Shown here: piece by piece, positions 19,524-38,417 of the stretch | Position numbering within the stretch: the first letter of the stretch is position 1 | Layout of the letters: each line of letters starts with the position of its first letter | Source: Roseivirga sp. E12 | Lineage (GTDB): Bacteria; Bacteroidota; Bacteroidia; Cytophagales; Cyclobacteriaceae | Direction of reading: 5' to 3' | Length of the DNA: 64,000 bases | NCBI RefSeq assembly: GCF_017592825.1 | Contig: NZ_JAGFMD010000001.1 | Location: forward strand, 372,001-436,000 | Position numbers and translations under genes: made by a program | Notes under the pieces: generated by a model | What the model was told of the DNA's origin: nothing | Databases searched by the model: none | What the model saw: only the letters and a program-made list of their open reading frames with translations

Positions 19524-20897
19524 CTACAATCCGTATTTAGACATCTTGCGATAAAGGGTGCTTCTGCCAAGTCCCAGAGCCTGAGCGGCTTTAGTGAGGT
19601 TACCTTCAGCGTTTCTTACAGCATTTTGAATGGCTTGTTTTTCCATCTCTTCAATATTGTAATTATCACTGGCAATCACATTCTGAGTTGGTCTCTCGAT
19701 GAGTAGAAAATCTTCTGGTGCCAAAAGGTGCGAATTGGCCATAATCACTGCACGTTCTATGGCATGTTGTAGTTCACGAACATTGCCCGGCCAAGAATAG
19801 CGCCTTAGTTTATTCAATGTGGTCTCGTTGAGGCGCATCTTGTCTTTGCGATACTTCTTGCCATACATTTTCAAAAAGTGCTGAGCAATAGGTTCAATAT
19901 CTTCTGTTCGCTCTCTTAATGGAGGAAGCTTAATTTCTACAGTATTGATTCGATACAAAAGATCTTGCCTAAACTCATTCTCTACGATCATATCATACAG
20001 CGGCATATTGGTAGCACAGATAAGACGGGTATCCAGAGGTGTTATCTTATTCGACCCAACACGAGAAACCTGCTTGAATTGAATTGCCGTTAATAGTTTG
20101 GCCTGCATAGACAAGGATAAGTTGCCTATTTCATCCAAGAAAAGAGTACCATCATTTGCCATTTCAAACCTTCCTGGTCTATCTTCTTTGGCATCGGTAA
20201 AGGCACCTTTAGCATGACCGAATAACTCCGATTCGAAAAGTGATTCGGAAATGGCTCCTAAGTCTACTTTAATAAAATTCTCGTCAACGCGTGGTGATCT
20301 ATTGTGAATAGCTCTGGCAATGAGTTCTTTGCCTGTACCATTTTCACCTAGTATCAAAACGTTGGCATCTGTAACGGCTACCTTATCGATGGCATCAAAG
20401 ACGGGTTTCATAGTAGGACTGATGCTGATGATATCGTCAAACTCGCGTTGCTGATCTCTTACGACAATCTTTTGACTCGTCTTTAATTCCTTAACCTCTT
20501 TCTTTGTCTGGCTAAGCGTAAAAATGGATTGAACAGTCGCGAGTAATTTTTCTTTCTGCCATGGCTTAACCAAAAAGTCAACAGCGCCTTCTTTCATGGC
20601 CTCCACAGCAATGTCTACCTCGCCATAAGCTGTGTTCATCAAAACGTGGGCATCAGGATCTTTTTGTAGAATTCTCTTAAGTAGCTTGATTCCTTCTTTT
20701 CCGCTGGTTAGTCCGTAGGAGAAGTTCATGTCAAGTACAATCACATCGTACTTGTGCTGATTTAGTAGAAAGTCAAGCTTTAGTGGGTCCTTCTCGGTAA
20801 TTACAGTTTCAAAATGCTGTTTGAGGATCATTTTAGCTGTATAGAGTACACCCTGATCATCATCGAGAACGAGAATTTTAGCATCAGCTTTAGACAT
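19524..20897 (-). CDS. NtrC-family sigma-54-dependent response regulator
   Basis: 457 residues. A receiver domain (1-125) has the phospho-acceptor in VIVLDMNFS and the Lys of LVKPWQ. The AAA+ domain (about 160-390) has Walker A GENGTGKE, a sigma-54 contact loop written GAFTDA instead of GAFTGA, Walker B GTLFLDEIGNL, and WPGNVRELQ. A Fis-type HTH (LTKAAQALGLGRSTLYRKM) ends the protein. It should bind paired enhancer sites and open sigma-54 promoters after phosphorylation by the adjacent kinase. It is divergent from the permease array; the 174-bp spacer contains two dyad sites, so it may control both the array and itself. Confidence 0.93.
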   Translation of the reverse strand: MSKADAKILVLDDDQGVLYTAKMILKQHFETVITEKDPLKLDFLLNQHKYDVIVLDMNFSYGLTSGKEGIKLLKRILQKDPDAHVLMNTAYGEVDIAVEAMKEGAVDFLVKPWQKEKLLATVQSIFTLSQTKKEVKELKTSQKIVVRDQQREFDDIISISPTMKPVFDAIDKVAVTDANVLILGENGTGKELIARAIHNRSPRVDENFIKVDLGAISESLFESELFGHAKGAFTDAKEDRPGRFEMANDGTLFLDEIGNLSLSMQAKLLTAIQFKQVSRVGSNKITPLDTRLICATNMPLYDMIVENEFRQDLLYRINTVEIKLPPLRERTEDIEPIAQHFLKMYGKKYRKDKMRLNETTLNKLRRYSWPGNVRELQHAIERAVIMANSHLLAPEDFLLIERPTQNVIASDNYNIEEMEKQAIQNAVRNAEGNLTKAAQALGLGRSTLYRKMSKYGL

Positions 20898-20939: not shown

Positions 20940-20977
20940 GTGTCAAACTGATACAAGTGCTCGTGTCAATTTGATAC
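20940..20977. promoter_or_regulatory. Paired 15-bp dyads, probable enhancer sites of the sigma-54 activator
   Basis: Two copies of GTGTCA-N3-TGATAC lie at 20940-20954 and 20963-20977, centres 23 bp apart (about two helical turns). The same motif recurs as a pair at 35825-35860 ahead of the last permease. They sit 43-80 bp from the activator's start and 95-132 bp upstream of the first permease, the usual place for NtrC-type enhancer sites. Confidence 0.7.
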
Positions 20978-21071: not shown

Positions 21072-23495
21072 ATGCTTAGACATTTGTTCACTTTAAGTAT
21101 CCGTACCGCTTTCAAGCACAAGTGGCTTTCTTTCGTCAACTTACTTGGACTTGGTCTAGGCCTGGCGGCCTTTGTGAGCATCTTTTACTATGTCGAATAT
21201 GAGAACAGCTTCGACAAGTTTCATACAAAGAGCGATCGACTATATAGGGTCGTTATGTCGCGTTATATCAATGACGATTTGGTGAGCATTCGACCTGATA
21301 ACTATCCAGCGTTAACGTCTGTATTGGAAAACAATATTGCTGGTATTGAGTCGGTTGAACCTCTTATGTATAGTTCTAGAGGGGGCACGCTCATAAAGTT
21401 CAATAACGACAATGAGCTGCTAAGAGATGACTTAAAAGTTCTGAACGCATCTGCCGGTTTCTTTAACCTGTTTGATTTGGAGTTAATTGAGGGAGATTAT
21501 CTCAGGCTCGATGAACCGTTCACTGGTTTGATTTCGGATGAACTGGCAGCGTCCATATTTGGAGATGTAAACCCAGTAGGCAAGTCGTGGATTGAAGATG
21601 ATGGACATGAGTACCTTATTCTTGGTGTCTATAGAAAATGGGACCACAATTCTCACTTAGACTTTGATCTGATCAAATCATTTGAAAGCATAGGTGCCAG
21701 ACATCGGTCAACGGATCATCATGATTCATGGGATTGGGGGAGAATGAAAACATATGTGCTATTGGAGGAAGGAGTAGCTAAGACTCTCATTGATGATCAA
21801 ATAAAAGGAATCATTGATGGATTTAAACCCAAACGAGCAGGATTACACTTGAGAGAAGAACTGTTCCTTCAGTCGATAGAGGATATACATTTAAAGTCTG
21901 ATTTCGAAGAAGGTAATTTCTTAGGCAGATATACAACTCAAGTCTATGGGCTCTTAATGGTAGGTTTCATCATAGTGATGCTTGCCTGGATCAATTTCGT
22001 AAACTTTTCCGTTGCCGGAACTCTAGAAAGAGTTAAAACTGTCGGTATTCAGAAGACTTTTGGAGCGAATAATAAATACCTGTTTTACAGACAGTTTTTT
22101 GATGCTTTAATTGTAAATGGACTAGCGCTGCTTTGTGCCTTATGTGTTTGGCAGTTGGTTCAGCCCGCTATAAACACCATTTCCGGTATTCCTTCAAGCC
22201 ATCAACCAGACAGTCACTTTTACCTCACGATTATCCTTATAGTCGCAATAGGCTCAGGCATCAGTGTTTTGGGTCCATTAGGCATTCTAAAAAGAACCAA
22301 AGTAGTTGAAGCTTTGAAAGGGTCAACCTCTGTTAGTCTCACTGGAATCGGTTCACTGAGGAAGGGGATGGTCACTTTTCAATGGGTAGTATCAATCTGC
22401 CTGATCTTGGCGGTTTATACAATCTGGTCACAATCAAATTACATTCATGGAATAGATAGAGGCATTAAAACTTCTGGAATATATGTGGTACAAGAACCAA
22501 GGGATTTTGACTACGATTTATTTGCTTCTAACCCAAGCCTAATTAAGAGCAAATGGCTGGCAATTCCCGGGGTCAAAGCTGTGGCCTCTTCATATGCTAT
22601 ACCGGGTAGCAGGCCATCGGCCTATGAGATTAGGGAATTTGACGCACCTTTATCGGCTAACATTCCTGTTTACGAACATCAGGTCGATGATGCCTTTTTG
22701 CCTTTGTATGGTAATAAACTTGTAGCGGGGCGCAATTTTTCAGAGCAGATTAGTTCTGATGATCACGCTGCTGTTCTTAACCTGTCAGCCGTTAAGGCCT
22801 TATTTGGTAGTGTAGATACCAATGAAGTATTGGGCAAAAGAATCACCAGTCCAGAGAATGAGTATATCCGTACTGTGGTAGGTGTGGTTGAAGACTACTA
22901 TCAGCTCTCACCAGCCGAATCTCAAATCCCTATCAGCTTTGTTCTTGATAGTGAGAGTCGGGGTTATTATTCCATTGCCTTTGAGGGGCAAAACATAACT
23001 CAGCTCATGTCTTCTGTTAAAAGTCAGTTTCAGGAAGTCTTTCCAGGAAATATCTTCCATTCTTTCTTTTTGGATGACTTCTATAATCAACAGTTTGTAA
23101 AAGAAAAGCAAGCAACACAGCTCTTGGGTGGCTTTTCTGTAATTGCCATTGTTCTTAGTCTAATGGGAATATGTGCGTTAACCGTCCTCGACCTTATTAA
23201 ACAAATGAAGGCTTTGAGTATAAGAAAAGTATTGGGAGCCAATCTTAAGTCGCTGTACATAGAAGTTGCAAAAGGGAACATCAAGAGGTTTCTCCTTGCG
23301 GCAATTATAGCCTTCCCTCTGAGTTATGTCTTCCTTGGTAAGTGGCTTTCAAAATTTGCCAATAGAATAGATTTGTCTCTTTTCAAGCTTTCCATTCCTA
23401 TAGTCATTACTGTCGCTGTACTGATAGCTGTATTGTGGGTAGTATCATATAAATCATTGATTGAAAATCCTGTTGACCACCTAAAAGAAGAATAA
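21072..23495 (+). CDS. Orphan FtsX/MacB-type permease, array member 1
   Basis: 807 residues with the duplicated layout of this array: membrane helix (about 20-40), large periplasmic MacB_PCD-like domain, a three-helix FtsX core (about 290-410), a fifth helix near 435, a second periplasmic domain, and a second FtsX core ending in NPVDHLKEE. The first cytoplasmic signature is diverged (KTVGIQKTFGAN), while the second is canonical (KALSIRKVLGAN). No ATP-binding domain is present. As an ABC-type mechanotransmission or export permease it would need an ATPase encoded elsewhere. First gene after the paired dyad sites; 5 bases separate it from member 2. Confidence 0.9.
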   Translation: MLRHLFTLSIRTAFKHKWLSFVNLLGLGLGLAAFVSIFYYVEYENSFDKFHTKSDRLYRVVMSRYINDDLVSIRPDNYPALTSVLENNIAGIESVEPLMYSSRGGTLIKFNNDNELLRDDLKVLNASAGFFNLFDLELIEGDYLRLDEPFTGLISDELAASIFGDVNPVGKSWIEDDGHEYLILGVYRKWDHNSHLDFDLIKSFESIGARHRSTDHHDSWDWGRMKTYVLLEEGVAKTLIDDQIKGIIDGFKPKRAGLHLREELFLQSIEDIHLKSDFEEGNFLGRYTTQVYGLLMVGFIIVMLAWINFVNFSVAGTLERVKTVGIQKTFGANNKYLFYRQFFDALIVNGLALLCALCVWQLVQPAINTISGIPSSHQPDSHFYLTIILIVAIGSGISVLGPLGILKRTKVVEALKGSTSVSLTGIGSLRKGMVTFQWVVSICLILAVYTIWSQSNYIHGIDRGIKTSGIYVVQEPRDFDYDLFASNPSLIKSKWLAIPGVKAVASSYAIPGSRPSAYEIREFDAPLSANIPVYEHQVDDAFLPLYGNKLVAGRNFSEQISSDDHAAVLNLSAVKALFGSVDTNEVLGKRITSPENEYIRTVVGVVEDYYQLSPAESQIPISFVLDSESRGYYSIAFEGQNITQLMSSVKSQFQEVFPGNIFHSFFLDDFYNQQFVKEKQATQLLGGFSVIAIVLSLMGICALTVLDLIKQMKALSIRKVLGANLKSLYIEVAKGNIKRFLLAAIIAFPLSYVFLGKWLSKFANRIDLSLFKLSIPIVITVAVLIAVLWVVSYKSLIENPVDHLKEE

Positions 23496-23500
23496 AGATT

Positions 23501-25909
23501 ATGTTTAGAAACTATTTCAGGACTGCTTTTCGAATTCACGTAAAGAACAAACTTTACTCATTTATCAACTTCATTGGACTGTCTATTGCATTAATGTTAT
23601 GCTTTCTGGTCTATTTATTTGTTCAAGACGAATTCAGCTATGATAACTTTCATAAAAATGGGGATAACCTCTTTTTGTTTCACTCTGTATCATACAAAGT
23701 TGATAATCCGAAGCTAGAAGCAGGTTTTTGGGACACTGAACCTTTGGCCGGAATTCAAAGGGAGTCTACCACCAACTTGCCATTCCTTAAGCTCATAGAG
23801 AGTAGTATACCAGAAATTGAGAGCATCACTCGGATTGAATATCAAAGCCTTACGACCATAAGAGATGGGGAAGAGTCAGGAGAAATGGTGCACTATGTTG
23901 ATCGCAATTTCTTTGATAATTTTTCATACCCGTTTTTGAAAGGCGATTCGGAAGTCGCTTTAGAAACGATCAGCGATGTTGTTATCACTAAGGAGTTTGC
24001 CATTAAGCATTTTGGTTCCATTGAAGTGTTAGGTCAAGACCTGATAGTGCTTGGTGATCCAAACAAGATTTACAAAGTGAAGGGGGTTATAGAATTGCCG
24101 CATAACACAATGCTGGATTTGAATATTATAGCCCCAGTTGAAAATTCTTATTATTATAAAAATCATCAAGACGATTGGAATTACTATGCCATCTCGGCAT
24201 TCTTCAAGCTGAAGGACAATGCACATGTAGATGACATAAACTCAAAAATTAGAAATATATTCTTAGACCAAAAAGATGAGCGGTATTTATCCCTGTCACG
24301 CCAAAACCTCAAACTTGCAGAAGATAATCCGATCATTGAGTTCGACTTAAAGAACGTTTCCGAGGTTTATTTAGATCCGACCTTAAGTTATAATAAGAGC
24401 TCATCTCCGCTATACTCTTACATACTCATTGCAATCTCTTTGGTCATCTTGATCATTGCTAGTATTAATTACTTGTCCATAAGTATAGCTTCTTCAGCAG
24501 GTAGAAGAGTAGAAATTGCTATCAGAAAGGTAGTGGGGGCTAATATTCCACAGCTGAAAATTCAGTTTTATTTGGAAGCACTCACACTCACACTACTGGC
24601 GGTGATAGGTGGTTTTACCCTGATGCAGACTTTTCTTCCAACCTTCAACGAAATGGCTGGCAAGTCATTACTGCCTACGATCGAAGAAAACATTTTACTT
24701 CTGACTTATGGACTCTTCTTTGGCCTGTTTATATCCTTTGTGGCAGGAGGATATCCAGCTCAAATTCTTGCCAGGTTTAAGGTTTTGTCAGGCTTAAAAG
24801 GTCAATCTACAAGTCGCGTGAGTCCGGGACTTATTAAGGGCATGATGATCTTTCAGTTTACACTCTGTCTGGTATTTATTTCCTTCAGTATTGTCATGCA
24901 GAAGCAATTCAAGTATATCAATGATAAGGACTTAGGCTTTGACAAGGAACAAATGGCTATAGTTGGAGGTCTTTGGGGGCAGGCAGAACTGGTGAAGCAG
25001 GAACTCTCTAAATATGCTTCAGTCAAAGAAGCAGGAACCAGTAGTGGCATTTTCACTGGGGGTGGCAGTTTTGGCACTATGGTAGTAGATGGGATTGAAC
25101 ATAGAATTAGACGTGTTCGCGTAGGTGAGGAGTTTATGAGGACGCTTGATATTACCTTTATTGACAAAGAAGGATTTCCTGCGCCTGAACGCCATGAGTT
25201 GGAAGAGGGTAAGGACTACGTTAATGAAACTTATTTCAATCTAATTGTAAGTGACTCTGCTAGGTTTAGACTCTATAAAGATCGAATAGCGGGAGTTGTT
25301 AAGGACTTTCATTTTGAATCGCTACAGACAGCTATATACCCAATCTCTTTCCGATTGGCTAAGCCTGAAGTGCTTTCCACTCTTTTTGTGAAACTAGAAG
25401 CTGGAATGACATCAGAAGGAGTCGAAAGCATCAAAGAAGCATACGAAAATATCACAGGTGAACCATTAAAGGAAGTAAGGTTTATGGATGCCTATTTGGC
25501 TTCACGATACAAGGATAGCCAACGTTGGCAACGGATTATTGACGCTTCTACAACCCTTGGAATTCTAATTGCCAGCATAGGTTTATTTGGTATGACGGGA
25601 ATAAACCTTGCTAATCGTATGAAAGAAATCAGTATCAGGAAGGTCCTAGGTGCAGATTTCAATCAAATTGCTTTGTTACTAAACCGACAGACACTGTTGC
25701 TAATTCTTGTGGCCGCTTTGATTTCGGTACCCATCTCTTATCAATTGACTACTCAGTGGCTCGAGGCATTTGCTTACCATGTGAACGTGTCAATAGAGAT
25801 ATTCATTTTCTCGGTATTAGTCTTATTCGGAATCTCATTACTCACGGTTTTATTTCATTCCATTAAATCGGTTAAAACAAATCCAGCAGAAATTTTACGC
25901 AGCGAATAA
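23501..25909 (+). CDS. Orphan FtsX/MacB-type permease, array member 2
   Basis: 802 residues with the same eight-helix, two-FtsX layout. Family signatures are VEIAIRKVVGANI in the first half and KEISIRKVLGADF in the second; it ends in TNPAEILRSE. The second periplasmic domain looks shorter than in the others, around the GIFTGGGSFGTMVVDG stretch, and retains the VKDFHFESLQ motif shared by the array. It starts 5 bases after member 1 and ends 8 bases before member 3, so it lies in a continuous transcript. Confidence 0.9.
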   Translation: MFRNYFRTAFRIHVKNKLYSFINFIGLSIALMLCFLVYLFVQDEFSYDNFHKNGDNLFLFHSVSYKVDNPKLEAGFWDTEPLAGIQRESTTNLPFLKLIESSIPEIESITRIEYQSLTTIRDGEESGEMVHYVDRNFFDNFSYPFLKGDSEVALETISDVVITKEFAIKHFGSIEVLGQDLIVLGDPNKIYKVKGVIELPHNTMLDLNIIAPVENSYYYKNHQDDWNYYAISAFFKLKDNAHVDDINSKIRNIFLDQKDERYLSLSRQNLKLAEDNPIIEFDLKNVSEVYLDPTLSYNKSSSPLYSYILIAISLVILIIASINYLSISIASSAGRRVEIAIRKVVGANIPQLKIQFYLEALTLTLLAVIGGFTLMQTFLPTFNEMAGKSLLPTIEENILLLTYGLFFGLFISFVAGGYPAQILARFKVLSGLKGQSTSRVSPGLIKGMMIFQFTLCLVFISFSIVMQKQFKYINDKDLGFDKEQMAIVGGLWGQAELVKQELSKYASVKEAGTSSGIFTGGGSFGTMVVDGIEHRIRRVRVGEEFMRTLDITFIDKEGFPAPERHELEEGKDYVNETYFNLIVSDSARFRLYKDRIAGVVKDFHFESLQTAIYPISFRLAKPEVLSTLFVKLEAGMTSEGVESIKEAYENITGEPLKEVRFMDAYLASRYKDSQRWQRIIDASTTLGILIASIGLFGMTGINLANRMKEISIRKVLGADFNQIALLLNRQTLLLILVAALISVPISYQLTTQWLEAFAYHVNVSIEIFIFSVLVLFGISLLTVLFHSIKSVKTNPAEILRSE

Positions 25910-25917
25910 TCATAGCC

Positions 25918-28320
25918 ATGCTCAAAAACTATTTCAATACCACAGTCAGATCGATAGGAAAGAATAAGCATTTTTCTTTCATCAACACAATAGGCTTGGC
26001 CATTGGGATGGCCGCTGTATTGGTAATTTTCCAATACGTGACATTCGAGTATAGTTTTGATAGATTTCACGAGAATAAGGATCAAATATATCGTTTGAAC
26101 CTAGGTCGACTTGATACTGGTGTGCCATCTAGTGCTACAAGTGCTGGAGTAATGGGGCCTATTTTGAAGGATAATTATGCTGGGATTAAATCTTTTGTCC
26201 GGTTAAGACAATTTCCTTCCTTGGTCGCTCATGAAGATAAAAGCATTTATGAGGAACACTTCTATTTTACGGACTCATCATTCTTTGAGGTTTTCTCTTT
26301 CAGGCTTTTAGAAGGTGATAAGCAGAATGTGCTACAAGAACCTAATACCATCGTCTTAACGGAGTCTTCTGCGCTTAGACTTTTTGGCAAGACAAGTGAA
26401 TTGATTGGTGAGTTGATCGAGGTTGATAACAGAATGTCATATAAGATCGATGGAGTAGTGGAAGATCCTCCTAAGAACTCTCATTTTAGCTTTTCTCATT
26501 TAGCATCCATTGCCTCCGTTGCTAATCACTACAATACACCCCTACGTACCTACCAATTCAATGAATGGTATGCTCATTATGTGCATACCTATTTTCAATT
26601 AGAGGAGAATGTAGATGTTGAGGCTCTGGGAGAATTGATCACTGATGCATCCAAAAAGCATTCAAACCCTGAGTACTATGAACTATATGGCACCAATATG
26701 GGGCTTTACTTACAAAGCTTGTCGGACATTCACCTGAACCCAATGTTCGGAGAACTAGGAGTTTCAGGTGATATAGACAACCTCTATATTCTGGCAAGTG
26801 CCGGAATCATAATTTTGCTCCTAGCCATGATCAATTACATCAATTTATCGACAGCACAGTCTATGAAGAGAGGTAAAGAGATGGCTTTAAGAAAGACATT
26901 AGGTGCCTCTAGAAATCAGCTAATCATGCAGTTCTTAATCCATTCCGTATTGCTTAGTCTTCTGTCTTTTGTTCTTGCTATTACGCTCTTGCAAACTCTA
27001 CAAGGATCATTGGTTCAGTTGCTAGGTTTGCCTGAGGAAGCTTTCTCTCTCTTTTATCAGAACTACTTGTTGGAAAGCATACTGTTGGTCTTGTCTATAG
27101 GATTACTCTCAGGGATTTATCCTGCGATTCGACTTTCATCTTCACAGCCAGCACACTTGTTTAGAGAGCAATCCTCTGGCAAACAAAAGTTTGTATTTAG
27201 GAAAGTTGTCATTTTTCTTCAATTCTCAATTTCAATAGCGCTGATATCCAGTACGATCATCGTTTTTTCTCAGGTTCAGTTCATGCAGCAACAGGAGTTG
27301 GGGCTTGATACCGAGCAAATACTACTATTACCTACATATGGCAATGATAATATTCATGATTCATATGATGTGTTTAGGCAGAGTTTAGAGGAGTTTTCAG
27401 ATGTCCAATCTTCAACCCTTGCCGAACTGTCCCCGGGGGAAAGCATTTTTGGGATAATCTCAAAGTTTGAGGGAATGGAGGGTAGTAAGTCTTTCGCGAC
27501 CATTGGTGTAGACTATGACTATCTAAAAACCTATGATATTGAGTTGATTGCAGGCAGAGATTTCTCGAGAGAAATTGTTACTGATACTGAAGAACGAGTA
27601 ATCATTAATAAAACCCTATGTGAAGAGCTGGGTTGGTCGGCTACAGAGGCTATCGGCAAAACCTTTGACTTTGGGGGAGATGGGACAACTCCTGGTTTCG
27701 TAATAGGAGTGGTTGACGACTTTCATTTTAATTCCTTAAAACAATCTATTCGACCAATTGCCATGGTCATTGCTCCAAATTTCTATCAGAAAATTGCCAT
27801 CAAGTTCAATTCGACAGACTTCTCCAGAACGATAGAAAACATTAGAGCTTCCTGGAACCAGGTTTATCCTCAATGGCCATTTGATTACAGCTTTGTAGAT
27901 GTAGAGTTTGATAATCAGTACAGCTCAGACCAAAGGTTTGGTAACCTGTTTCTCCTTTTCACCTTCTTAGGACTATTCATCGGAGCATTGGGAGTTTATG
28001 GTTTGGTTCAACTCATAACAGAATATAGAAGACGCGAATTAAGCATCAGGAAAGTACTTGGTGCCGAATTATGGAGGTTAGTCAGCTTACTTTCAAATGA
28101 GTATGTGAGTTTAATGGGATTGGCCTTTTTACTCAGTGCGCCATTGGTCTACTTTTTTATGAGCGAGTGGTTGACGGATTTTGCCTTTAAAGTTCAGATA
28201 AGCTGGTGGATGATCGGGTTGTCATTATTGGCCATAGCTTTTATCTGCTTCTGCACCATAGGATTGAAGATTTACCAAACAGCTAAATCTAACCCTGTAG
28301 ATCACCTTAGATATGAATAA
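25918..28320 (+). CDS. Orphan FtsX/MacB-type permease, array member 3
   Basis: 800 residues. The N-terminus MLKNYFNTTVRSIGKNK is almost the same as that of the 26-codon remnant at 28363. Signatures are KEMALRKTLGAS and RELSIRKVLGAE, with VVDDFHFNSLKQS in the second periplasmic domain and the terminal NPVDHLRYE. Eight predicted membrane helices, no ATPase domain. The 155 bp downstream contain the remnant gene before member 4. Confidence 0.9.
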   Translation: MLKNYFNTTVRSIGKNKHFSFINTIGLAIGMAAVLVIFQYVTFEYSFDRFHENKDQIYRLNLGRLDTGVPSSATSAGVMGPILKDNYAGIKSFVRLRQFPSLVAHEDKSIYEEHFYFTDSSFFEVFSFRLLEGDKQNVLQEPNTIVLTESSALRLFGKTSELIGELIEVDNRMSYKIDGVVEDPPKNSHFSFSHLASIASVANHYNTPLRTYQFNEWYAHYVHTYFQLEENVDVEALGELITDASKKHSNPEYYELYGTNMGLYLQSLSDIHLNPMFGELGVSGDIDNLYILASAGIIILLLAMINYINLSTAQSMKRGKEMALRKTLGASRNQLIMQFLIHSVLLSLLSFVLAITLLQTLQGSLVQLLGLPEEAFSLFYQNYLLESILLVLSIGLLSGIYPAIRLSSSQPAHLFREQSSGKQKFVFRKVVIFLQFSISIALISSTIIVFSQVQFMQQQELGLDTEQILLLPTYGNDNIHDSYDVFRQSLEEFSDVQSSTLAELSPGESIFGIISKFEGMEGSKSFATIGVDYDYLKTYDIELIAGRDFSREIVTDTEERVIINKTLCEELGWSATEAIGKTFDFGGDGTTPGFVIGVVDDFHFNSLKQSIRPIAMVIAPNFYQKIAIKFNSTDFSRTIENIRASWNQVYPQWPFDYSFVDVEFDNQYSSDQRFGNLFLLFTFLGLFIGALGVYGLVQLITEYRRRELSIRKVLGAELWRLVSLLSNEYVSLMGLAFLLSAPLVYFFMSEWLTDFAFKVQISWWMIGLSLLAIAFICFCTIGLKIYQTAKSNPVDHLRYE

Positions 28321-28362
28321 TAATCAACGGAACATTAAAAAGGACAGAAGAAATTAGGAACA

Positions 28363-28443
28363 ATGCTCAAGAACTATTTTAAAACAACACTACGGTCAAT
28401 CATCATCAAGAATCCTTCAGATGTATTAAGAATAGAAAATTAA
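28363..28443 (+). pseudogene. Remnant of an eighth permease: start and end of the gene joined in frame
   Basis: A 26-codon ORF runs from ATG 28363 to TAA 28441-28443. Residues 1-12 are MLKNYFKTTLRS, matching the first residues of member 3 (MLKNYFNTTVRS, 10 of 12). Residues 16-25 are KNPSDVLRIE, matching the conserved last residues of every permease here (NPVDHLRYE, NPADSLRYE, NPAEILRSE). Everything between, about 770 codons, is missing. The join falls in a run ATCATCATC, which suggests deletion by slippage between short repeats. The start, frame and stop are all intact, so a 26-residue peptide could still be made. Confidence 0.85.
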
Positions 28444-28475
28444 AAGGTCATCAAAAACTCTAAAAACAACTAAAC

Positions 28476-30923
28476 ATGTATAAAAACTATATAAAAACTA
28501 CTCTCAGATCGCTCAAGAAAAACAGACTGTTTTCTCTGATTAATATTTTCGGCCTTGCTGCTGGTATTGCAGCCTCGGTATTCATACTTCAGTACGCATT
28601 TTTCGAACTTAACTTCGACCGGTTTCATAAGAATTCTTCTAACGTCTATCGCGTAATGAACGAACGATTTGAAGGCGAGCGTTTGATTCAGAGGGGTCAG
28701 ATTACTTACTCAGCGGTAGGCAAGCAAATGTTTGAAGATTACCCTGAAGTAGTCGACTATTTCACGCTCAGCACTTTCGGTCAAAATGTAATTGAGCATA
28801 ATCAGAATCCAGTAAAAATACCTTTTAGCATCTTGGTAGAGCCTAGCTTCTTCGAGATGTTTTCATTTAATGTGATTGCAGGCAATCCCAAAGAAGTGTT
28901 CGATCAGAAGCGTAAAATGGTAGTCTCTGAAGACGTAGCAAAACGTCTATTTCAATCAGATGAAGGCAATTGGGATAAGTATATAGGAGAGATCATTAGA
29001 ATGGGTTCCAGCAGGATGGAATACGAATTAGTGGGTATTCTGGAAGATGCACCTCCTAACTCCAGCCTTCAATATGAAGTCATCTTATCGAGAGCTACTA
29101 CTTTCGATTTTTCTCCACAGGCTGAGTTTGGCTGGCTTGGATCAGATTACTTCCATTATGTGCAACTAGATGAGCGTGCTGACCCAGCGTCTTTGGTTCA
29201 AAAGTTTGAAGACTTCAGTAACAAGTATTTCAAAGGGAATCAGGTTACGGGGACTTACGAGAAGTTTCACCTGCAGCCCTTGGAGGATGTATATCTATAT
29301 TCAGACTATGAGTATGAGAACCATCAGACTTCAGATGGTAGCATGGTTTGGATTCTAATTCTGATTGCCGCTTTTATCTTGATAATGGCCTGGATTAACT
29401 ATATCAATCTTACCACTTCTAAGTCATTGCAACGTGCCAAAGAGGTAGGGGTAAGAAAGGTAGTGGGGGCAACCAAAAAACAGTTGGTTATCCAGTTCTT
29501 AATGGAGTCCCTCACGCTGAATTTTCTTGCTTTCATTTTGGCAATAACTCTGGTTCAAGTTTTTCAAAATTCCTTCAATTTGCTTGTAGAGAGAGAATTA
29601 GGCCTTATTGATTTTTTGTCTTCACAGCTTTATGGTACTCCGGTATTCCTTTGGTTGTTTGGTACGCTGCTTCTAGGATCTTTTCTTTCAGGTGTTTATC
29701 CAGCTTTTATTCTTGCTGCTTTTAATCCTTCACAATCTCTCAAGGGTCAGTTTGCTAAAAGCTCCAAAGGCCAGCTTTTAAGAAAGACACTCGTAGTATT
29801 TCAGTTTGCCCTTTCAATTGCATTAATAGCCGGGACAGTTCTGGTGTATCAACAAACGACTTTCATGCGAAATCAAGACTTAGGTGTGAACATGGAACGC
29901 GTCTTGACAGTAGAGGGCCCTGCGTTAACTAATATGGATACCACGTTTGTCGAAAGAATTCAACAGTTCTCGAACAAGCTTGAACAAAATTCACGAATTG
30001 AAAAAGTAGGTACTTCAGCGTCTGTTTTAGGTAGTCGTTTGCCGCGGACCTTTAATGTGAGAACTAGCCCTGAAGGTGAGGGAACTATGCTAAATAGAAT
30101 CAATGCAAACTTTGGTTTTCTGGATGTATACAAGATTGAAATCATAGCTGGTCGAAATTTTATACCAAGTGATCATCACAGAGAATTCAGCCTTATCAAA
30201 GGAGTGATTTTGAATGAAAAGGCATCTCAACTGTTAGGCTTTGAGAGTGCTCAGGACGCTGTTAATAAGAAACTGACCTTCTTTGGTCGCGACTGGGAAA
30301 TAATAGGAGTAACTGCTGATTTCCATCATCGCTCGTTAAAGTCTTCTATTGAACCATTAATGGTTTCTCCATTTTATAATGGGGGTGATGACACCTACCA
30401 CATCCGTATTGATGATTCGAACCTTCCAGAGACTATCGAATACATCTCACAAACATTTGATGAGTTTTTCCCTAATGACATCTTTGAATATAACTTCATG
30501 GATGCTCGGTTCGATAATCAGTACAAGGCAGATCAGCAGTTTGGTAAAATCTTCAACATTTTCTCTTTGCTGGCCATTGCAATTGCTTGTTTGGGCCTAT
30601 TCGGTCTAGCGGGTTATACGGCAATCCAGAAGACCAAGGAAATAGGTATTAGGAAGGTGTTAGGTGCATCGATAACCAATATTTTGCATATGCTGTCAAA
30701 AGAGTTCTTCCTACTTATCCTTCTGGCAAGTGTCATTGGCTTACCATTGATATTCTTAGGTGCTCGACTTTGGTTGGCAGGTTATGAGTATCAAACGGAC
30801 ATTGGTACAGCGTTCTTCTTGTTGCCAGTAATGGTTGTACTGTTTGTGGCAGCAACGATCATTTTTGGGCAGAGTATGAAAACCGCGCAGTCCAACCCAG
30901 TAAAATCACTCAGACAAGATTAA
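28476..30923 (+). CDS. Orphan FtsX/MacB-type permease, array member 4
   Basis: 815 residues. The first FtsX core has AWINYINLTTSKSLQRAKEV, then GVRKVVGATKKQL; the second has KEIGIRKVLGAS; the end is NPVKSLRQD. Its first half resembles members 5 and 7 (shared INLTTSK/INLSTSK/INLSTAR and QFLMES stretches) more than members 1-3, suggesting a later duplication. It follows the remnant ORF by 32 bases and precedes member 5 by 17. Eight helices and two periplasmic domains; no ATP-binding domain. Confidence 0.9.
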   Translation: MYKNYIKTTLRSLKKNRLFSLINIFGLAAGIAASVFILQYAFFELNFDRFHKNSSNVYRVMNERFEGERLIQRGQITYSAVGKQMFEDYPEVVDYFTLSTFGQNVIEHNQNPVKIPFSILVEPSFFEMFSFNVIAGNPKEVFDQKRKMVVSEDVAKRLFQSDEGNWDKYIGEIIRMGSSRMEYELVGILEDAPPNSSLQYEVILSRATTFDFSPQAEFGWLGSDYFHYVQLDERADPASLVQKFEDFSNKYFKGNQVTGTYEKFHLQPLEDVYLYSDYEYENHQTSDGSMVWILILIAAFILIMAWINYINLTTSKSLQRAKEVGVRKVVGATKKQLVIQFLMESLTLNFLAFILAITLVQVFQNSFNLLVERELGLIDFLSSQLYGTPVFLWLFGTLLLGSFLSGVYPAFILAAFNPSQSLKGQFAKSSKGQLLRKTLVVFQFALSIALIAGTVLVYQQTTFMRNQDLGVNMERVLTVEGPALTNMDTTFVERIQQFSNKLEQNSRIEKVGTSASVLGSRLPRTFNVRTSPEGEGTMLNRINANFGFLDVYKIEIIAGRNFIPSDHHREFSLIKGVILNEKASQLLGFESAQDAVNKKLTFFGRDWEIIGVTADFHHRSLKSSIEPLMVSPFYNGGDDTYHIRIDDSNLPETIEYISQTFDEFFPNDIFEYNFMDARFDNQYKADQQFGKIFNIFSLLAIAIACLGLFGLAGYTAIQKTKEIGIRKVLGASITNILHMLSKEFFLLILLASVIGLPLIFLGARLWLAGYEYQTDIGTAFFLLPVMVVLFVAATIIFGQSMKTAQSNPVKSLRQD

Positions 30924-30940
30924 ACTTAAAACTCAAAATC

Positions 30941-33358
30941 ATGGTCATCTCGAACATTCGTTTCGCTTTTAGGCAACTCAATAAAAACAAAGTGTTTACC
31001 ATCGTCAATGTGGTGGGGCTGGCGCTTTCAATGGTTGCTTGCCTCTTGATCTTTAAGTATGTCAGTTTTGAAAAAAGCTATGATGCCTATCATGAAGAAG
31101 CTGAAGATATCTATAGGATATACCGAATAGCCGATGGTGAAGATCCAGACGATGGTGTGGCTTCAATCTTTCCTGGTATAACACCATTGCTTAAGAGAGA
31201 AATCCCCGAATTTGAGTATGTAACTAGGGTTATTGGTTCCGATAAAATGTTTCAATCCTTCGCTTTTACACATTTTTCGAGTGAGGGGAAAGCCAATACC
31301 TTCAACATGCCAAAGGCATTTTTTGCCGATCATGATGCACTTGACATTTTCAAACTCAACTGGCTTGAAGGACAGAATTCGCGTTCCTTACAAAATCCTA
31401 ACGAGCTGGTCATTTCACAGTCTTTCGCAAAGCGATTCTTTGGGGATGCAGAAGCAGTAGGTCAGGTATTAAGGTTCAAGAACATGGAAGTCGATTACCT
31501 GGTGACAGGTGTATTTGAGAATGTTCCCGAAAACAGTCACTTTAAATTCAATGTCCTGTGCTCATTCAGTTCACTTCCAGAAGAGTGGGAGCTAGATACG
31601 TCATTTGGTTGGGGTAACTTCTATACCTATGCCAAGCTGGTAGACAATTCGGACTTGGTTTCTTTAGAACCGAAAATGAATGATTTAATCAGTCAGCACG
31701 GAGAGACGTGGTATAAGGAAGAGGGCATTTATTTTAAATTTCAAAACATACCGGATATTCATTTAACGTCACATCACAGTTACGAATTAGAGGCCAACGG
31801 GAATAAATCTACTGTGCTGTTTCTTTCCATTATCGGAGTTTTCATTATGGTGATTGCCTGGGTCAACTACATTAATTTGAGCACATCAAAGTTGGTAGAA
31901 AGAGCAAAGGAGGTAGGCATTCGGAAGGTAATGGGCGGCTATCGCAGACAGTTGATTGGTCAGTTTTTGTCTGAGTCTTTGTTGGTCAATCTATTTGCAC
32001 TGGTTTTGGCGTTGACAGCCCTTCAGCTTAGCCGAAACTTTTTCGAATCATTGATCGGAATCGAAGTCAACTATTTTTCAGGTAACGATCTCAACGTGAC
32101 TTTAGGATTTGCTGTGCTGTTCTGCCTTGGCTCTTTGCTTTTCGGTTTATATCCGGCTGTCTTGTTCTCAGGTCAGAAAATAAGTAGTGTTTTAAAGGGA
32201 AAGTCGAAGGTGAGCAAGTCTGGGCTTCAATTGAGAAGAGGCTTAACTGTCTTCCAATATGTGATTGCTGTAGTACTCATTCTGGGTACAGTAGTGGTTA
32301 AGTCTCAGTTAGAATTTATTCAAAAAGAGTCCCTAGGAATGAATATTGACAGGACTTTGATTGTGAAAAAACCATTTGTCGAACAAGAGAATAGGTCTTC
32401 TAGTAAATCAACCTTTATCAATAAGGTGAGACAGATGAGCGATATCAGCGCTATAAGTGCCTCCTCAGAAATTCCAGGTTATGAAATTTCTAGAATGAGA
32501 TGGGTTGCCTTAGGACCTGATGCTGATGATAAATCTCTTTATGCCAAAGATCTGGCGATAGATGATTCTTTTGTCGATTTATATCAAATTGAAGTGCTGT
32601 ACGGACGGAATTTTTCAACAGATTTTGCTGATTCAACTTCAGTAATTTTGAGTCTTTCGGCTGCAGAACATCTGTTGGGATCAGAGGACTTAGAGAAATG
32701 GATTAACCAAACCATCTATTATGAAACGGCTCCTTATCGCTTGGTAGGAATAGTCGATGACATTAGTCAAGAATCGCTAAAGGCAAATGCAAAGCCTCAT
32801 ATATATACGTATCGCGATCGTGATAAATTTTACTCGATTAAGGTCGATGCTTCTGATGTTGGCGCTACAATTGAACGAGTACAAAGTGCATTTAATATGA
32901 GTTTTGCTTCTAGCCATTTCGACTATTTCTTTTTGGATGCTTATTTTGATAGACAGTACAAGGCAGATCGCCTATTTGGACAGATCTTTAGTTTTTTCTC
33001 ATTATTAGCGATTGTTATTACCTCCCTAGGCTTATTCGGACTATCTCTTTATAACATCGGTCAGCGATCTCGAGAGGTTAGTATTAGAAAGGTACTTGGT
33101 GCTTCTGTCAATAGTATATTCTATTTATTGACCAAGGAATACATACTATTGATGCTATTAGCATCGATAATCGCTATGCCAATTGGGTACTACTTCGTAG
33201 ATCAATGGCTCAATGCCTTTGCCAGTAGAACGACATTATCGTGGACGCTTTTCCTACTTCCCGTCCTAATTGTTTCTGTACTAACTCTTCTGACGGTTTT
33301 GTATCAGGTAATAAAGACTGTGTTTGCCAACCCTGCCGATTCACTTCGGTACGAATAG
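30941..33358 (+). CDS. Orphan FtsX/MacB-type permease, array member 5
   Basis: 805 residues. Signatures are KEVGIRKVMGGYRRQ in the first core, where the usual GA is GG, and REVSIRKVLGAS in the second. The end is NPADSLRYE. The layout is the array standard: N-terminal helix, MacB_PCD-like domain, FtsX core, helix, second periplasmic domain, FtsX core. It starts 17 bases after member 4. The 44-bp gap to member 6 has no visible promoter or terminator, so transcription probably continues. Confidence 0.9.
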   Translation: MVISNIRFAFRQLNKNKVFTIVNVVGLALSMVACLLIFKYVSFEKSYDAYHEEAEDIYRIYRIADGEDPDDGVASIFPGITPLLKREIPEFEYVTRVIGSDKMFQSFAFTHFSSEGKANTFNMPKAFFADHDALDIFKLNWLEGQNSRSLQNPNELVISQSFAKRFFGDAEAVGQVLRFKNMEVDYLVTGVFENVPENSHFKFNVLCSFSSLPEEWELDTSFGWGNFYTYAKLVDNSDLVSLEPKMNDLISQHGETWYKEEGIYFKFQNIPDIHLTSHHSYELEANGNKSTVLFLSIIGVFIMVIAWVNYINLSTSKLVERAKEVGIRKVMGGYRRQLIGQFLSESLLVNLFALVLALTALQLSRNFFESLIGIEVNYFSGNDLNVTLGFAVLFCLGSLLFGLYPAVLFSGQKISSVLKGKSKVSKSGLQLRRGLTVFQYVIAVVLILGTVVVKSQLEFIQKESLGMNIDRTLIVKKPFVEQENRSSSKSTFINKVRQMSDISAISASSEIPGYEISRMRWVALGPDADDKSLYAKDLAIDDSFVDLYQIEVLYGRNFSTDFADSTSVILSLSAAEHLLGSEDLEKWINQTIYYETAPYRLVGIVDDISQESLKANAKPHIYTYRDRDKFYSIKVDASDVGATIERVQSAFNMSFASSHFDYFFLDAYFDRQYKADRLFGQIFSFFSLLAIVITSLGLFGLSLYNIGQRSREVSIRKVLGASVNSIFYLLTKEYILLMLLASIIAMPIGYYFVDQWLNAFASRTTLSWTLFLLPVLIVSVLTLLTVLYQVIKTVFANPADSLRYE

Positions 33359-33402
33359 TCACAAATTTATTTATAGCAAGTCTCTAAGCTAATAGCACTC
33401 TC

Positions 33403-35817
33403 ATGATCAAGAATTACTTTTCTATAGTTCTCAGAAGTCTCAAGAAGAAGAAAGTCTTTGCTTTTATTAATATCTGTGGCTTAGCGATTGGTATTTGTGC
33501 CTTCCTGCTGATTTTAGATTTTATTTCGTTCGAAAATAGCTTCGATAATTTTCATCAGAAGGGCGATAGAATTTATCGTGTTCAATATGAAAAGATCAGT
33601 GCCGATCGTCATGACAAAAGTGCTGGTTTGGCGGCAGGTGGTGGTCCAGCATTAATGGAAGCCTACCCGGAGGTTGAGACTTTCAGTAAAATATGGGGTA
33701 CAAACCATATGGTTAACCTCATAAAAGTCAATGATGAACCCTTTGAGTCAGAGAAACTCTTTTATGCAGATAGTAGTTTCTTTGAGTTATTTGACTTTGA
33801 CTTTCTGGCAGGCAATAGAATGACTGTTCTTGATGAGGTTAACTCAATTGTCATCACCGAAAGTGCTGCTGAGAGGTTTTTTGGTAGAAAAGATGTGTTA
33901 AATGAGGCAGTCTATCTTCAGAATGGGATGACCAACGTAGTGGTCAAGGTAACCGGTATTTTGAAAGACTTACCTGCAAATACGCATTTCGATTTTGAAG
34001 TATTAGTGTCCTTCGAGTCACTGGTAAATGCAACGGAGACGGCTGCCAATTCTTTCGGATGGAATGCCTTTCCAACCTATCTTTTGCTGAAGGAAGGAGT
34101 GGACCCTTCAATACTAGAAGCTAAGTTTCCTGATTTTATCGAAACGCACTATCAAAATGCAATTGGTCAAGGCATTCAACCTCTTTATAAGCTTAGATCA
34201 CTAGAAGACATTTACCTGCATTCAAATGTACGGTTCGAGGTTGGCCCAACTGGCAGTTATCAGGTACTTCAGATTCTGACAGGAATTTCTGTCTTCATCA
34301 TCATCCTTGCTTACTTTAATTACATCAACATTACCACTGCTCAGGCCTTAGATAGAGCTAAAGAAGTAGGAGTGAGAAAGGCAGCAGGCGCGAATAAAGC
34401 ACAGTTATTCACACAGTTTATGGTGGAGTCGTTCTTCTTTAATTTTTTAAGCATGGCAGCAGGGTTCACCCTGATGCAAGTCTCCAAGCCTTTATTCACA
34501 GAGGTCATAGGGAAGGAATTTCCCATTGGTCTCACATTCAGTACTGCTCAATTTTTAGCACTCATAATCATTCTTGTAATGGGCACCTTGTTCTCTGGGC
34601 TTTACCCAGCTTGGATTCTGTCTAAACTTAAGACCTCTGAAGTGTTACGAGGAAAGACAAATGTACGGGGAAGGTCAGGGTTTTTAAGAAAGAGCTTAGT
34701 GGTGGTACAGTTTAGCATCTTATGTTTTCTTTTGGTAGGTAGTCTCGCTGTTAGAGAGCAAATTCAATATATGCTCAATGCGGATTTGGGCTTCGACCCA
34801 AATCAAGTTTTGGTAATCAAAGGTCCAGCTGCCGGTGGAAACACCAATTTGGACACCAAGCTACAGAGCTTCATGGCAAGGCTAGAGTCAACTCCTCAGG
34901 TTATTGAAGCTTCTCATTCGACTGTTGTTCCTGGAAAAGAAATCTCCTGGATTAATAACGATGTAAGGAGGGAAGGGGCATCAGAAAGCGAGTCTGCTTC
35001 TATCCATTTTATCGGAGTAAGTGATAACTATCTCAATACACTGGACTTAAAACTACTAGCAGGTAGAAATTTTGATAAAGAAATCTTGAGTGACACAGGT
35101 AGCATTCTGTTGAGCAATTCAGCCTTAAAAGCGCTTGGGTTCACTTCACCTGAGCAAGCCATTGATCAGAAAGTAATGACCTTCGGAGAAAGACGTGTTA
35201 TTGGTGTAGTCGATGATTATATGCAAGAATCGTTTAAGAAGGGCTATAATGCTACAGCTTACCTGTTGGCACCTTGGGCCAATAATTATTTCAGTCTAAA
35301 GATTTCTGCAGGCAATGCACAGGGTGTAACAGAGTCTTTGGAGAAAATTTACCGAGAACATTTTGCCGGTAATCCATTCGAATATTTCTTCCTAGATGAG
35401 TTCTTTCAAAGACAGTTCGAGGAAGACAGGACATTTGCTAAAACCTTCAACCTATTTACGCTTTTGGGCATTTGGATCTCCTGCCTGGGGCTTATCGGTC
35501 TCACGCTTCATGCTGTATCACTGAGAAGAAAGGAGATAGGTATTAGAAAGGTATTAGGTGCAAAACTTCTAAATGTTGTTGTTCTAGTCTCAGGCAAGCT
35601 TATTTACCCTATTGTCATTGCAGTAGTACTGAGTATCCCAGTCACCTATTATTTGGTAAACCAATGGCTACAGAATTACACTTTTGCTACTAACTTGGGA
35701 CCTACGGTGTTTATTCTTCCGGTTTTAGCGATAGTTCTGCTTACCTTAATAACTACTTCAATACTTTCGATCAGAACGGGGCTCAAAAACCCTGTAGATT
35801 CGCTACGGTATGAGTGA
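33403..35817 (+). CDS. Orphan FtsX/MacB-type permease, array member 6
   Basis: 804 residues. Signatures are KEVGVRKAAGANKAQL and KEIGIRKVLGAK; the end is NPVDSLRYE. The second periplasmic domain has GVVDDYMQESFKKG in place of the DFHxxSL pattern of its relatives. Eight membrane helices, no ATPase domain. It is followed by a 143-bp gap that contains the second pair of dyad sites and a sigma-54 promoter, so member 7 can be expressed separately. Confidence 0.9.
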   Translation: MIKNYFSIVLRSLKKKKVFAFINICGLAIGICAFLLILDFISFENSFDNFHQKGDRIYRVQYEKISADRHDKSAGLAAGGGPALMEAYPEVETFSKIWGTNHMVNLIKVNDEPFESEKLFYADSSFFELFDFDFLAGNRMTVLDEVNSIVITESAAERFFGRKDVLNEAVYLQNGMTNVVVKVTGILKDLPANTHFDFEVLVSFESLVNATETAANSFGWNAFPTYLLLKEGVDPSILEAKFPDFIETHYQNAIGQGIQPLYKLRSLEDIYLHSNVRFEVGPTGSYQVLQILTGISVFIIILAYFNYINITTAQALDRAKEVGVRKAAGANKAQLFTQFMVESFFFNFLSMAAGFTLMQVSKPLFTEVIGKEFPIGLTFSTAQFLALIIILVMGTLFSGLYPAWILSKLKTSEVLRGKTNVRGRSGFLRKSLVVVQFSILCFLLVGSLAVREQIQYMLNADLGFDPNQVLVIKGPAAGGNTNLDTKLQSFMARLESTPQVIEASHSTVVPGKEISWINNDVRREGASESESASIHFIGVSDNYLNTLDLKLLAGRNFDKEILSDTGSILLSNSALKALGFTSPEQAIDQKVMTFGERRVIGVVDDYMQESFKKGYNATAYLLAPWANNYFSLKISAGNAQGVTESLEKIYREHFAGNPFEYFFLDEFFQRQFEEDRTFAKTFNLFTLLGIWISCLGLIGLTLHAVSLRRKEIGIRKVLGAKLLNVVVLVSGKLIYPIVIAVVLSIPVTYYLVNQWLQNYTFATNLGPTVFILPVLAIVLLTLITTSILSIRTGLKNPVDSLRYE

Positions 35818-35824
35818 TTGATTC

Positions 35825-35860
35825 GTGTCATCATGAAACAAAAGTGTGTCATCATGATAC
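35825..35860. promoter_or_regulatory. Second pair of 15-bp dyads, probable enhancer sites
   Basis: GTGTCA-TCA-TGAAAC at 35825-35839 (one mismatch) and GTGTCA-TCA-TGATAC at 35846-35860 (exact) repeat the motif found at 20940-20977. Centres are 21 bp apart, two helical turns. They lie about 55-90 bp upstream of the -24/-12 promoter at 35915, right for a sigma-54 activator. Confidence 0.75.
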
Positions 35861-35914
35861 GCTTTTTTTAATCCATTATATCTTAAGTGTTTGAAAATGA
35901 GTGTTATAGTGTTT

Positions 35915-35930
35915 TGGTACAGGCATTGCA
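35915..35930 (+). promoter_or_regulatory. Sigma-54 (-24/-12) promoter for permease 7
   Basis: TGGTACAGGCATTGCA matches TGGCACRNNNNTTGCW at all but one position (T for C), with GG at 35916-35917 and GC at 35928-35929 separated by exactly 10 bases. Transcription would start near 35941. That excludes the upstream TTG at 35937 as the start of permease 7 and supports ATG 35961. Confidence 0.82.
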
Positions 35931-35960
35931 ACTTGTTTGTCAGATAAAACTCAAAATATC

Positions 35961-38417
35961 ATGTTTAGAAATCATCTTTTTGTCGCATTAAGAAACTTTC
36001 AAAAGAGAAAGTCTTTCACATTCATCAACATATTAGGCTTAACTGTTGGCATGACAGTCTGCTTGCTCATTTTAACATATGCTCGCTATGAAATGAGTTA
36101 TGATAAGTTTCATGATCGCGCGGATGACATCTATAGAATCACTGTAGATATCTATAATGGCGAGGACTTTCAGGTAGCTGATGCACAGTGCTATCCAGCA
36201 GCGGGTAAGCTGGCAAAAGAAGAATTCTCAGAAATTGAAGATTATGCGATGGCAAGGCATTTTGGTCGAATGCTCTTGAAGAATGGCGATAAAGCTTTTA
36301 ATGAGGATAGGTTGTACTGGGCAAACCCAGCATGGCTAAAGATATTTGATTGGCAGATGGTTCTGGGTGATCCCGAAACAGCTCTGGAAGATCCAGATGT
36401 ATTGGTAATTACTGAAAGCACGGCTAAGAAGTACTTTGGTGATGAGGATCCCATTGGAAAGATTCTAACCGTAGTTCCAGGTGGTGCTGAGGTGCCCATG
36501 ATCGTGAAGGGAGTAATAAAGGATGTCCCTGAAAATGCTCACCTTAAGTTTGACGTACTTGGTTCTTACGCGAGTGCTGTGAAGTACATGGGTAGCAGCT
36601 ATGACAATTTTGGTGGAAACAATGAGTTCATGTATGTATTGGCTAATAAGCCCCTAGATAACGATTTTCAAAAACGTTTTAATACGTCATATTACTCTAA
36701 AACAGGCCCTTTTGCCGATAGAGGTGATAGTTTAGTCATTCAACCACTAACTGAAATACATCTTAATTCAGATAAGACTTACGAAGCAGATGTAAATGGT
36801 AGCCAGTCCATAGTCAATATTCTTTTGGTGGTAGCCGGGTTTGTACTGTTGATCGCTTGGGTTAACTATATAAACCTTTCCACGGCTAGAGCTATGGAGC
36901 GAGGTAAAGAGGTAGGTGTAAGAAAGGTACTCGGCTCGAATAAGCAATCATTGGTATTCCAGTTCTTGATGGAATCTGTAATGCTGAATTTTCTTGCGCT
37001 GATACTTACAATCACTTGTATTCAAGGTGTGCTACCGTTCTTCAACAACCTAGCAGGCGTTTCACTTTCATTCAATGTTTTCAGCGAACCTGATTTACTG
37101 ATGCAAGTGGTCGGAATCTTCTTTGTTGGGTCTATAGCCTCTGGTATCTACCCTGCCTTAGTATTGTCAAATTATCGTCCGCTTGCCGTACTTACAGGCA
37201 GGTTAAAGGATTCTAAAGGTGGTTTGATCCTGCGTAAGGGATTGGTAGTATTTCAGTTCATGATCACTATGCTGCTGTTAGTTGGTACAATCACTATATA
37301 CAAGCAGGTGAATCACATGAGGTCTCAATCTTTAGGAGTTGATATTGATCAAACCATAGTCATTAAGTCACCAATCCTTGTAGATGAAGATGAGCAGCAA
37401 GTTTCTAAGCGAAATACATTTAAAGCAGAAATTAAAAAAATAGCTCAAGTATCCGCTGTTACCTATTCTGAAACAGTTTTCGGTCAAGGAACTATCGATA
37501 TGAATACAACCACCGGTATGAAGACTATCGAAGGCGAAGTAGGTGACGGAGTCAACTGGTCATTTTATAGAGTAGACGAAGACTTCGTACCAACCTTTGG
37601 GTTCGAAATTCTGGCTGGAAGAACGTTTGACAGTAACTTGGAACAGTTAGTGCCTGAAAGAGAAGCATTATATGAAGGCGTAATGATTAATGAGACTGGT
37701 AGAAAAGTCTTTGGTTTTGAATCAAATGAAGCAGCTGTAGGCTCAAAAATCAATCGTTTCGGAATAGTGTCTACTATTGTGGGTGTGTTTGCTGATTACA
37801 ATCACCACTCCCTAAAGACAAAGGTTGATCCAACAATGTTTTGGTTCGATAAGGATGCTAATGCATCGAACTATGTATCTATTAGAGTCAATGGAGGACA
37901 AAACCCAGGAGAGAGTTATAAGACTATCTTAAGTGATATTCAGTCTGCTTATCGAGAGGTGTATCCTGCAAGCGACTTTGACTACTTCTTCTTAGATGAA
38001 AACTTTGAAAAGCAGTACAAAGCGGATAGGCAATTTGGAACTGTATTTACAACTTTTGCAGGCATCACAATTTTTGTAGCGGTACTAGGTTTGTTCGGTT
38101 TGGTGCTTTATGAGGTGCAACAGCGAATCAAAGAAATTGGTATCAGAAAAGTGCTAGGAGCAAGTGTATCAACGATTATTCAATTACTCTCTTCTAGCTT
38201 TTTGAAACTCATTACGATTGCAATAGTCCTTGCTTTGCCGATCGCTTATTTTGGAATGAATGAATGGCTATCGGGTTACGCTTATCGAATAGACCTCTCA
38301 GTATTACTATTTATTATTCCGGCCGTAACACTCTTGGGAGTTGCTTTGATCACGGTGGCTACGCAAGCAGTCAAAGCAGCTAACGAAAACCCAGTGAAGT
38401 CATTGAGGTACGAATAG
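35961..38417 (+). CDS. Orphan FtsX/MacB-type permease, array member 7
   Basis: 818 residues from the ATG at 35961, chosen because the predicted sigma-54 start site is near 35941 and because MFRNHLFVALRNFQKRK matches the N-termini of the other members. Signatures are KEVGVRKVLGSNKQSL and KEIGIRKVLGAS; the end is NPVKSLRYE. It has the array's eight-helix, two-domain layout and no ATP-binding domain. It is the only member with a clear promoter of its own, just downstream of paired dyads. A strong bidirectional terminator follows 24 bases after the stop. Confidence 0.92.
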   Translation: MFRNHLFVALRNFQKRKSFTFINILGLTVGMTVCLLILTYARYEMSYDKFHDRADDIYRITVDIYNGEDFQVADAQCYPAAGKLAKEEFSEIEDYAMARHFGRMLLKNGDKAFNEDRLYWANPAWLKIFDWQMVLGDPETALEDPDVLVITESTAKKYFGDEDPIGKILTVVPGGAEVPMIVKGVIKDVPENAHLKFDVLGSYASAVKYMGSSYDNFGGNNEFMYVLANKPLDNDFQKRFNTSYYSKTGPFADRGDSLVIQPLTEIHLNSDKTYEADVNGSQSIVNILLVVAGFVLLIAWVNYINLSTARAMERGKEVGVRKVLGSNKQSLVFQFLMESVMLNFLALILTITCIQGVLPFFNNLAGVSLSFNVFSEPDLLMQVVGIFFVGSIASGIYPALVLSNYRPLAVLTGRLKDSKGGLILRKGLVVFQFMITMLLLVGTITIYKQVNHMRSQSLGVDIDQTIVIKSPILVDEDEQQVSKRNTFKAEIKKIAQVSAVTYSETVFGQGTIDMNTTTGMKTIEGEVGDGVNWSFYRVDEDFVPTFGFEILAGRTFDSNLEQLVPEREALYEGVMINETGRKVFGFESNEAAVGSKINRFGIVSTIVGVFADYNHHSLKTKVDPTMFWFDKDANASNYVSIRVNGGQNPGESYKTILSDIQSAYREVYPASDFDYFFLDENFEKQYKADRQFGTVFTTFAGITIFVAVLGLFGLVLYEVQQRIKEIGIRKVLGASVSTIIQLLSSSFLKLITIAIVLALPIAYFGMNEWLSGYAYRIDLSVLLFIIPAVTLLGVALITVATQAVKAANENPVKSLRYE

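Follow-up and report, generated by a model that had tools for sequence, protein, structure and literature searches.

The deletion of segments between very short repeats, free of RecA, is well known. According to PMC2884548, between 10 and 18% of small variable segments are flanked by repeats of at least 5 bp, frequently alongside deletions, and such repeats account for part of the variation in small segments; PMC5426353 reports that E. coli can lose the sequence between short direct repeats independently of RecA. The literature found on short-repeat deletion consists of such general papers, with none on the permease array considered here.

This array lies in a stretch of 64,000 nucleotides from Roseivirga sp. 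E12, referred to below, as a whole, as the window. Between its third and fourth members, the array contains a frame of 26 codons. Very probably, this is what an in-frame deletion has left of X, an eighth gene of the array that coded for a full-length MacB_PCD/FtsX permease. This reading is drawn from sequence comparison with relatives, in particular with the genome G006 of the same genus.

A short frame within the permease array

The seven intact permeases of the array, of about 800 residues each, and the features around the short frame are as follows.

21072-38417, plus strand: permease array, seven intact members and the short frame
25918-28320, plus strand: array member 3, permease with MacB_PCD and FtsX, 81% identical to its G006 ortholog
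28321-28362, plus strand: spacer of 42 bases between member 3 and the short frame (40 bases in G006, not alignable)
28363-28443, plus strand: short frame, in which codons 1-15 of the lost permease X are probably joined in frame to its last 12, counting the stop; 63 of 81 bases identical to the head and tail of G006 X
28408-28412, plus strand: putative deletion junction with the 5-base microhomology AAGAA, over which all breakpoints are equally good
28444-28475, plus strand: spacer of 32 bases between the short frame and member 4, equal in length to the spacer between X and member 4 of G006
28476-30923, plus strand: array member 4, permease with MacB_PCD and FtsX, 85% identical to its G006 ortholog

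The short frame, flanked by members 3 and 4, is translated as MLKNYFKTTLRSIIIKNPSDVLRIEN*. A head-plus-tail profile of 25 positions was built with the short frame and its G006 counterpart left out, and was run against the six frames of the window. The short frame was the top match (41.4 bits, E = 1.1e-11), and whole permeases reached at most 35.6 bits, only as two separate pieces. Because of this rank and score, the short frame is considered real and not a product of chance; the presence of a permease-type head and tail in 28363-28443, far beyond chance, is confirmed. The frame given in a preliminary description of this DNA is therefore present, with start, frame and stop intact, its length being more precisely 26 residues plus the stop.

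The ends of the short frame are more specific than that description had proposed. The head was said to match member 3, and it does so at 10 of 12 residues (MLKNYFNTTVRS), but not in particular, since member 4 (MYKNYIKTTLRS) also agrees at 10 of 12 and G006 X is identical at all 12. Similarly, the tail had been regarded as common to all members; it is of permease type, but KNPSDVLRIEN* is X-like, and the C-terminal EN is found, among the permeases listed, only in G006 X.

The surroundings of the array offer several observations of their own. It adjoins the genes of a sigma-54 activator (19524-20897) and of a histidine kinase (17655-18989). Paired palindromes GTGTCA-N3-TGATAC, one copy with GAAAC, lie at 20940-20977 and 35825-35860, upstream of members 1 and 7, and a sigma-54-like site, TGGTACAGGCATTGCA, precedes member 7 at 35915-35930; similar sites are present in G006 and in the genome G003. 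Given their position next to the array and the sites before members 1 and 7, the activator and kinase may control the array as two units, members 1 to 6 and member 7. Array content and order vary between species, as illustrated by member 6 (33403-35817), which has no counterpart in G006 and whose relative in G003 precedes member 5 rather than following it. Additionally, the 4.7 Mb of the window's own genome contain 115 matches to a duplicated FtsX/MacB permease of about 800 residues, which makes for a very large paralog family.

The probable parent gene in a relative and the proposed deletion junction

The 501 bases around the short frame were used as a DNA query against 19 genus genomes, the own genome included. 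G006 returned three colinear matching pieces: one for the final part of member 3, one for the head of the short frame, and one for its tail continuing through member 4. The head and tail pieces (query positions 164-213 and 209-501) overlap by 5 bases in the query and lie 2.3 kb apart in G006. The array of G006 at locus L029 reads members 1, 2, 3, X, 4, 5 and 7, with ortholog identities of 72% (member 1), 78% (member 2), 81% (member 3), 85% (members 4 and 5) and 89% (member 7). X, flanked there by the orthologs of members 3 and 4, is a full permease of 811 residues (L029:9686-12121, minus strand), with the N-terminus MLKNYFKTTLRSVIRKK and the C-terminus SKNPSEVLRTEN*. As the test of a deletion, the preliminary description had named the presence of an eighth, complete permease at the same locus in a close relative; G006 X is such a gene and supports the deletion reading.

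According to Pfam, X scores 99.7 bits for FtsX against a gathering cut-off of 25.5 and 88 bits for MacB_PCD against 27, and X, member 3 and member 4 each carry two MacB_PCD and two FtsX stretches. This duplicated build is shared with ADOP (TIGR03434), the closest NCBIfam model, but X reaches 235.6 bits against a curated cut-off of 622.3; X, member 3 and member 4 all fall well short of that cut-off and are thus not assigned to ADOP. The window permeases closest to X are about 30-32% identical to it. When 92 long ORFs (all ORFs above 600 residues in the fetched loci together with the window members, a few of them not permeases) were ranked as possible sources of the short frame, G006 X was the best source of head plus tail, and the best source of the tail by 5 bases.

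G006 X has AAGAA at both ends of the gap. With this gene as proxy for the deleted one, the junction falls at a short repeat, and the missing segment measures 2355 bases, or 785 codons; the middle is gone, as the preliminary description held, and its earlier size of about 770 codons is revised accordingly. Microhomology of at least 5 bases occurs at only 0.6% of the junctions near the ends of X. Since four-fold sites of the six ortholog pairs differ at about 65% at the distance of G006, the presence of the pentamer in the gene that was actually deleted is presumed from its proxy.

In the proposed course of events, X would have contained the pentamer AAGAA twice, directly behind codon 15 and again where the KNP tail begins, and an in-frame deletion of 2355 bases between the two copies would have removed 785 codons in the lineage of the window's genome, leaving the start, frame, stop and downstream spacer intact. 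The pentamer suggests slippage or another RecA-independent short-repeat event as the route. The in-frame outcome may reflect chance (one in three), or may have been favoured as harmless to the downstream members of the operon, and the remnant itself would presumably be without function.

Age, rival readings and direction of change

Compared codon by codon with X, the short frame has 13 identical, 9 synonymous and 4 nonsynonymous codons among 26, and the same terminal codons in the six intact ortholog pairs include 1 to 8 nonsynonymous ones. Because the changes at its ends are mostly synonymous, like those at the ends of intact orthologs, either the deletion would be late or the peptide would have been kept. 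A drift simulation assumed that the lineage had accumulated neutral changes at 0.5 or 0.8 per site. For a remnant drifting over the last fifth of that time, the probability that the frame stayed intact with no more than 4 nonsynonymous codons was 0.036 at the lower rate and 0.002 at the higher one; over the last tenth, the values were 0.18 and 0.07. The deletion, earlier called recent, would be so only in relative terms: if the remnant drifted neutrally at these rates, it would fall within roughly the final fifth of the time since the lineage separated from G006.

Preservation of the remnant would mean either a putative micropeptide with both permease ends, or a translated spacer that couples translation of member 3 to that of member 4, or keeps ribosomes or RNA polymerase going from the former into the latter. 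The intact start, frame and stop fit this reading, as does a share of nonsynonymous codons that does not exceed the share in the terminal codons of intact orthologs, but a recent deletion gives the same codon pattern, and the 42-base spacer upstream speaks against tight coupling. Furthermore, the frame is confined to the window's genome: across the 19 genus genomes, the next matches among those listed are heads of full-length permeases, and in the remaining 294 genomes of the family there is no match that passes E 1e-6. Because no second genome among those searched carries the frame, a kept micropeptide is very unlikely, and the retained micropeptide that the preliminary description had offered as an option finds no support of its own in the 19 genus and 295 family genomes searched. 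For the same reason, the sequence data fit a late deletion and a kept peptide alike, of which the late deletion would be the simpler reading.

An assembly error, in which an intact X of the organism had been collapsed, is extremely improbable. The genome is a draft of 35 contigs with many related permeases, which would invite such an error, but the repeat at the junction, with its 5 bases, is short for a collapse, and the body of X is found on no contig.

The direction of change was examined in a tree of 60 rows, containing permeases above 700 residues from 11 of 17 loci (10 genus relatives) and the seven window members. The tree did not include the loci of G010, G014 and G017, nor one locus of G007 and two of the own genome, and the array comparison was made without the relatives G005, G008, G009, G012 and G016. 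The X clade (SH-aLRT 100) unites one gene each from G006, G007, G013 and G015, four of the ten genus relatives in the tree, and each of these genes lies directly upstream of a member 4-type gene. Because the clade stands next to such genes in G007, G013 and G015 as well, X is a long-standing member of the array, from which the short form is derived. Read from this tree and gene order, X is ancestral and was very probably lost in the lineage of the window's genome. The reverse, an ancestral short frame from which X arose in G006 through insertion of a permease middle, has practically no chance of being right, being contradicted by the tree and by X orthologs with the same type of head and tail near member 4-type genes in three further, more distant genomes.

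No X ortholog was found elsewhere in the window's genome, where the best of 115 permease matches is 34% identical, against 72-89% for the G006 orthologs of the other members; with so low a best match, X has not moved to another place in the genome. A scan of genome contigs returned 10 loci with best-segment identities of 26 to 35%, none close enough to use.

Other remnants and known short-repeat deletions

Screens for further short frames of this kind, with a query that includes the present one, scored up to 150 candidates per genus genome and up to 29 per family genome. No second two-ended remnant was present among the matches listed for the 19 genus genomes, and none in the 295 family genomes. 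As a control, all 17 composites outside the query scored 34.5 to 61.5 bits with a profile built without the short frame. The notion that such remnants are frequent was rejected, as 138 of the 141 profile matches in the own genome lie in open frames of at least 788 residues. The remaining three are the short frame itself, a scar on contig C33 that consists of a tail only, and, at C11:233814, a weak match resembling a tail (E 0.62).

The tail-only remnant, KMNPVDSLRDE*, is located at C33:134522-134569 (L086:8523-8570), on the minus strand, with a tRNA-Leu on one side and what we take to be a fucosidase-like gene on the other. At the matching place, G003 has a full permease of 874 residues ending in SKMNPVNSLRDE*, nearly the same tail, and the tRNA-bearing flank past the tail is common to both. 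Because the C33 scar matches this intact permease, the own genome contains at least two scars of lost permeases, only one of them two-ended.

In G007, a 430-residue array member (L035:4899-6191, minus strand) has a permease head and tail and matches X at residues 1-333 and 639-810, as if one half had been lost in frame. A tendency of the family towards in-frame head-to-tail deletion, through in-phase KN (head) and KNP (tail) codons, was also considered, but is not claimed given only a slight excess: among 75 permeases, junctions with at least 5 bases of microhomology amount to 0.96% in frame versus 0.63% and 0.72% in the other phases.

The short frame very probably represents an ordinary gene loss of a known kind, by short-repeat deletion, late relative to the G006 split. 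As such, it documents in detail how genes turn over in a large permease family, since the sequence alone gives the parent gene, its position, the junction and the relative age, and it advises caution, as short frames with a head and a tail within paralog arrays can be scars rather than small genes. With deletions between short direct repeats, attributed to illegitimate recombination or replication slippage, it shares the loss of a segment between very short repeats with no recombinase in sight; it differs from them in that both repeats would belong to a single gene and share its reading frame, which leaves a clean frame of 26 codons.
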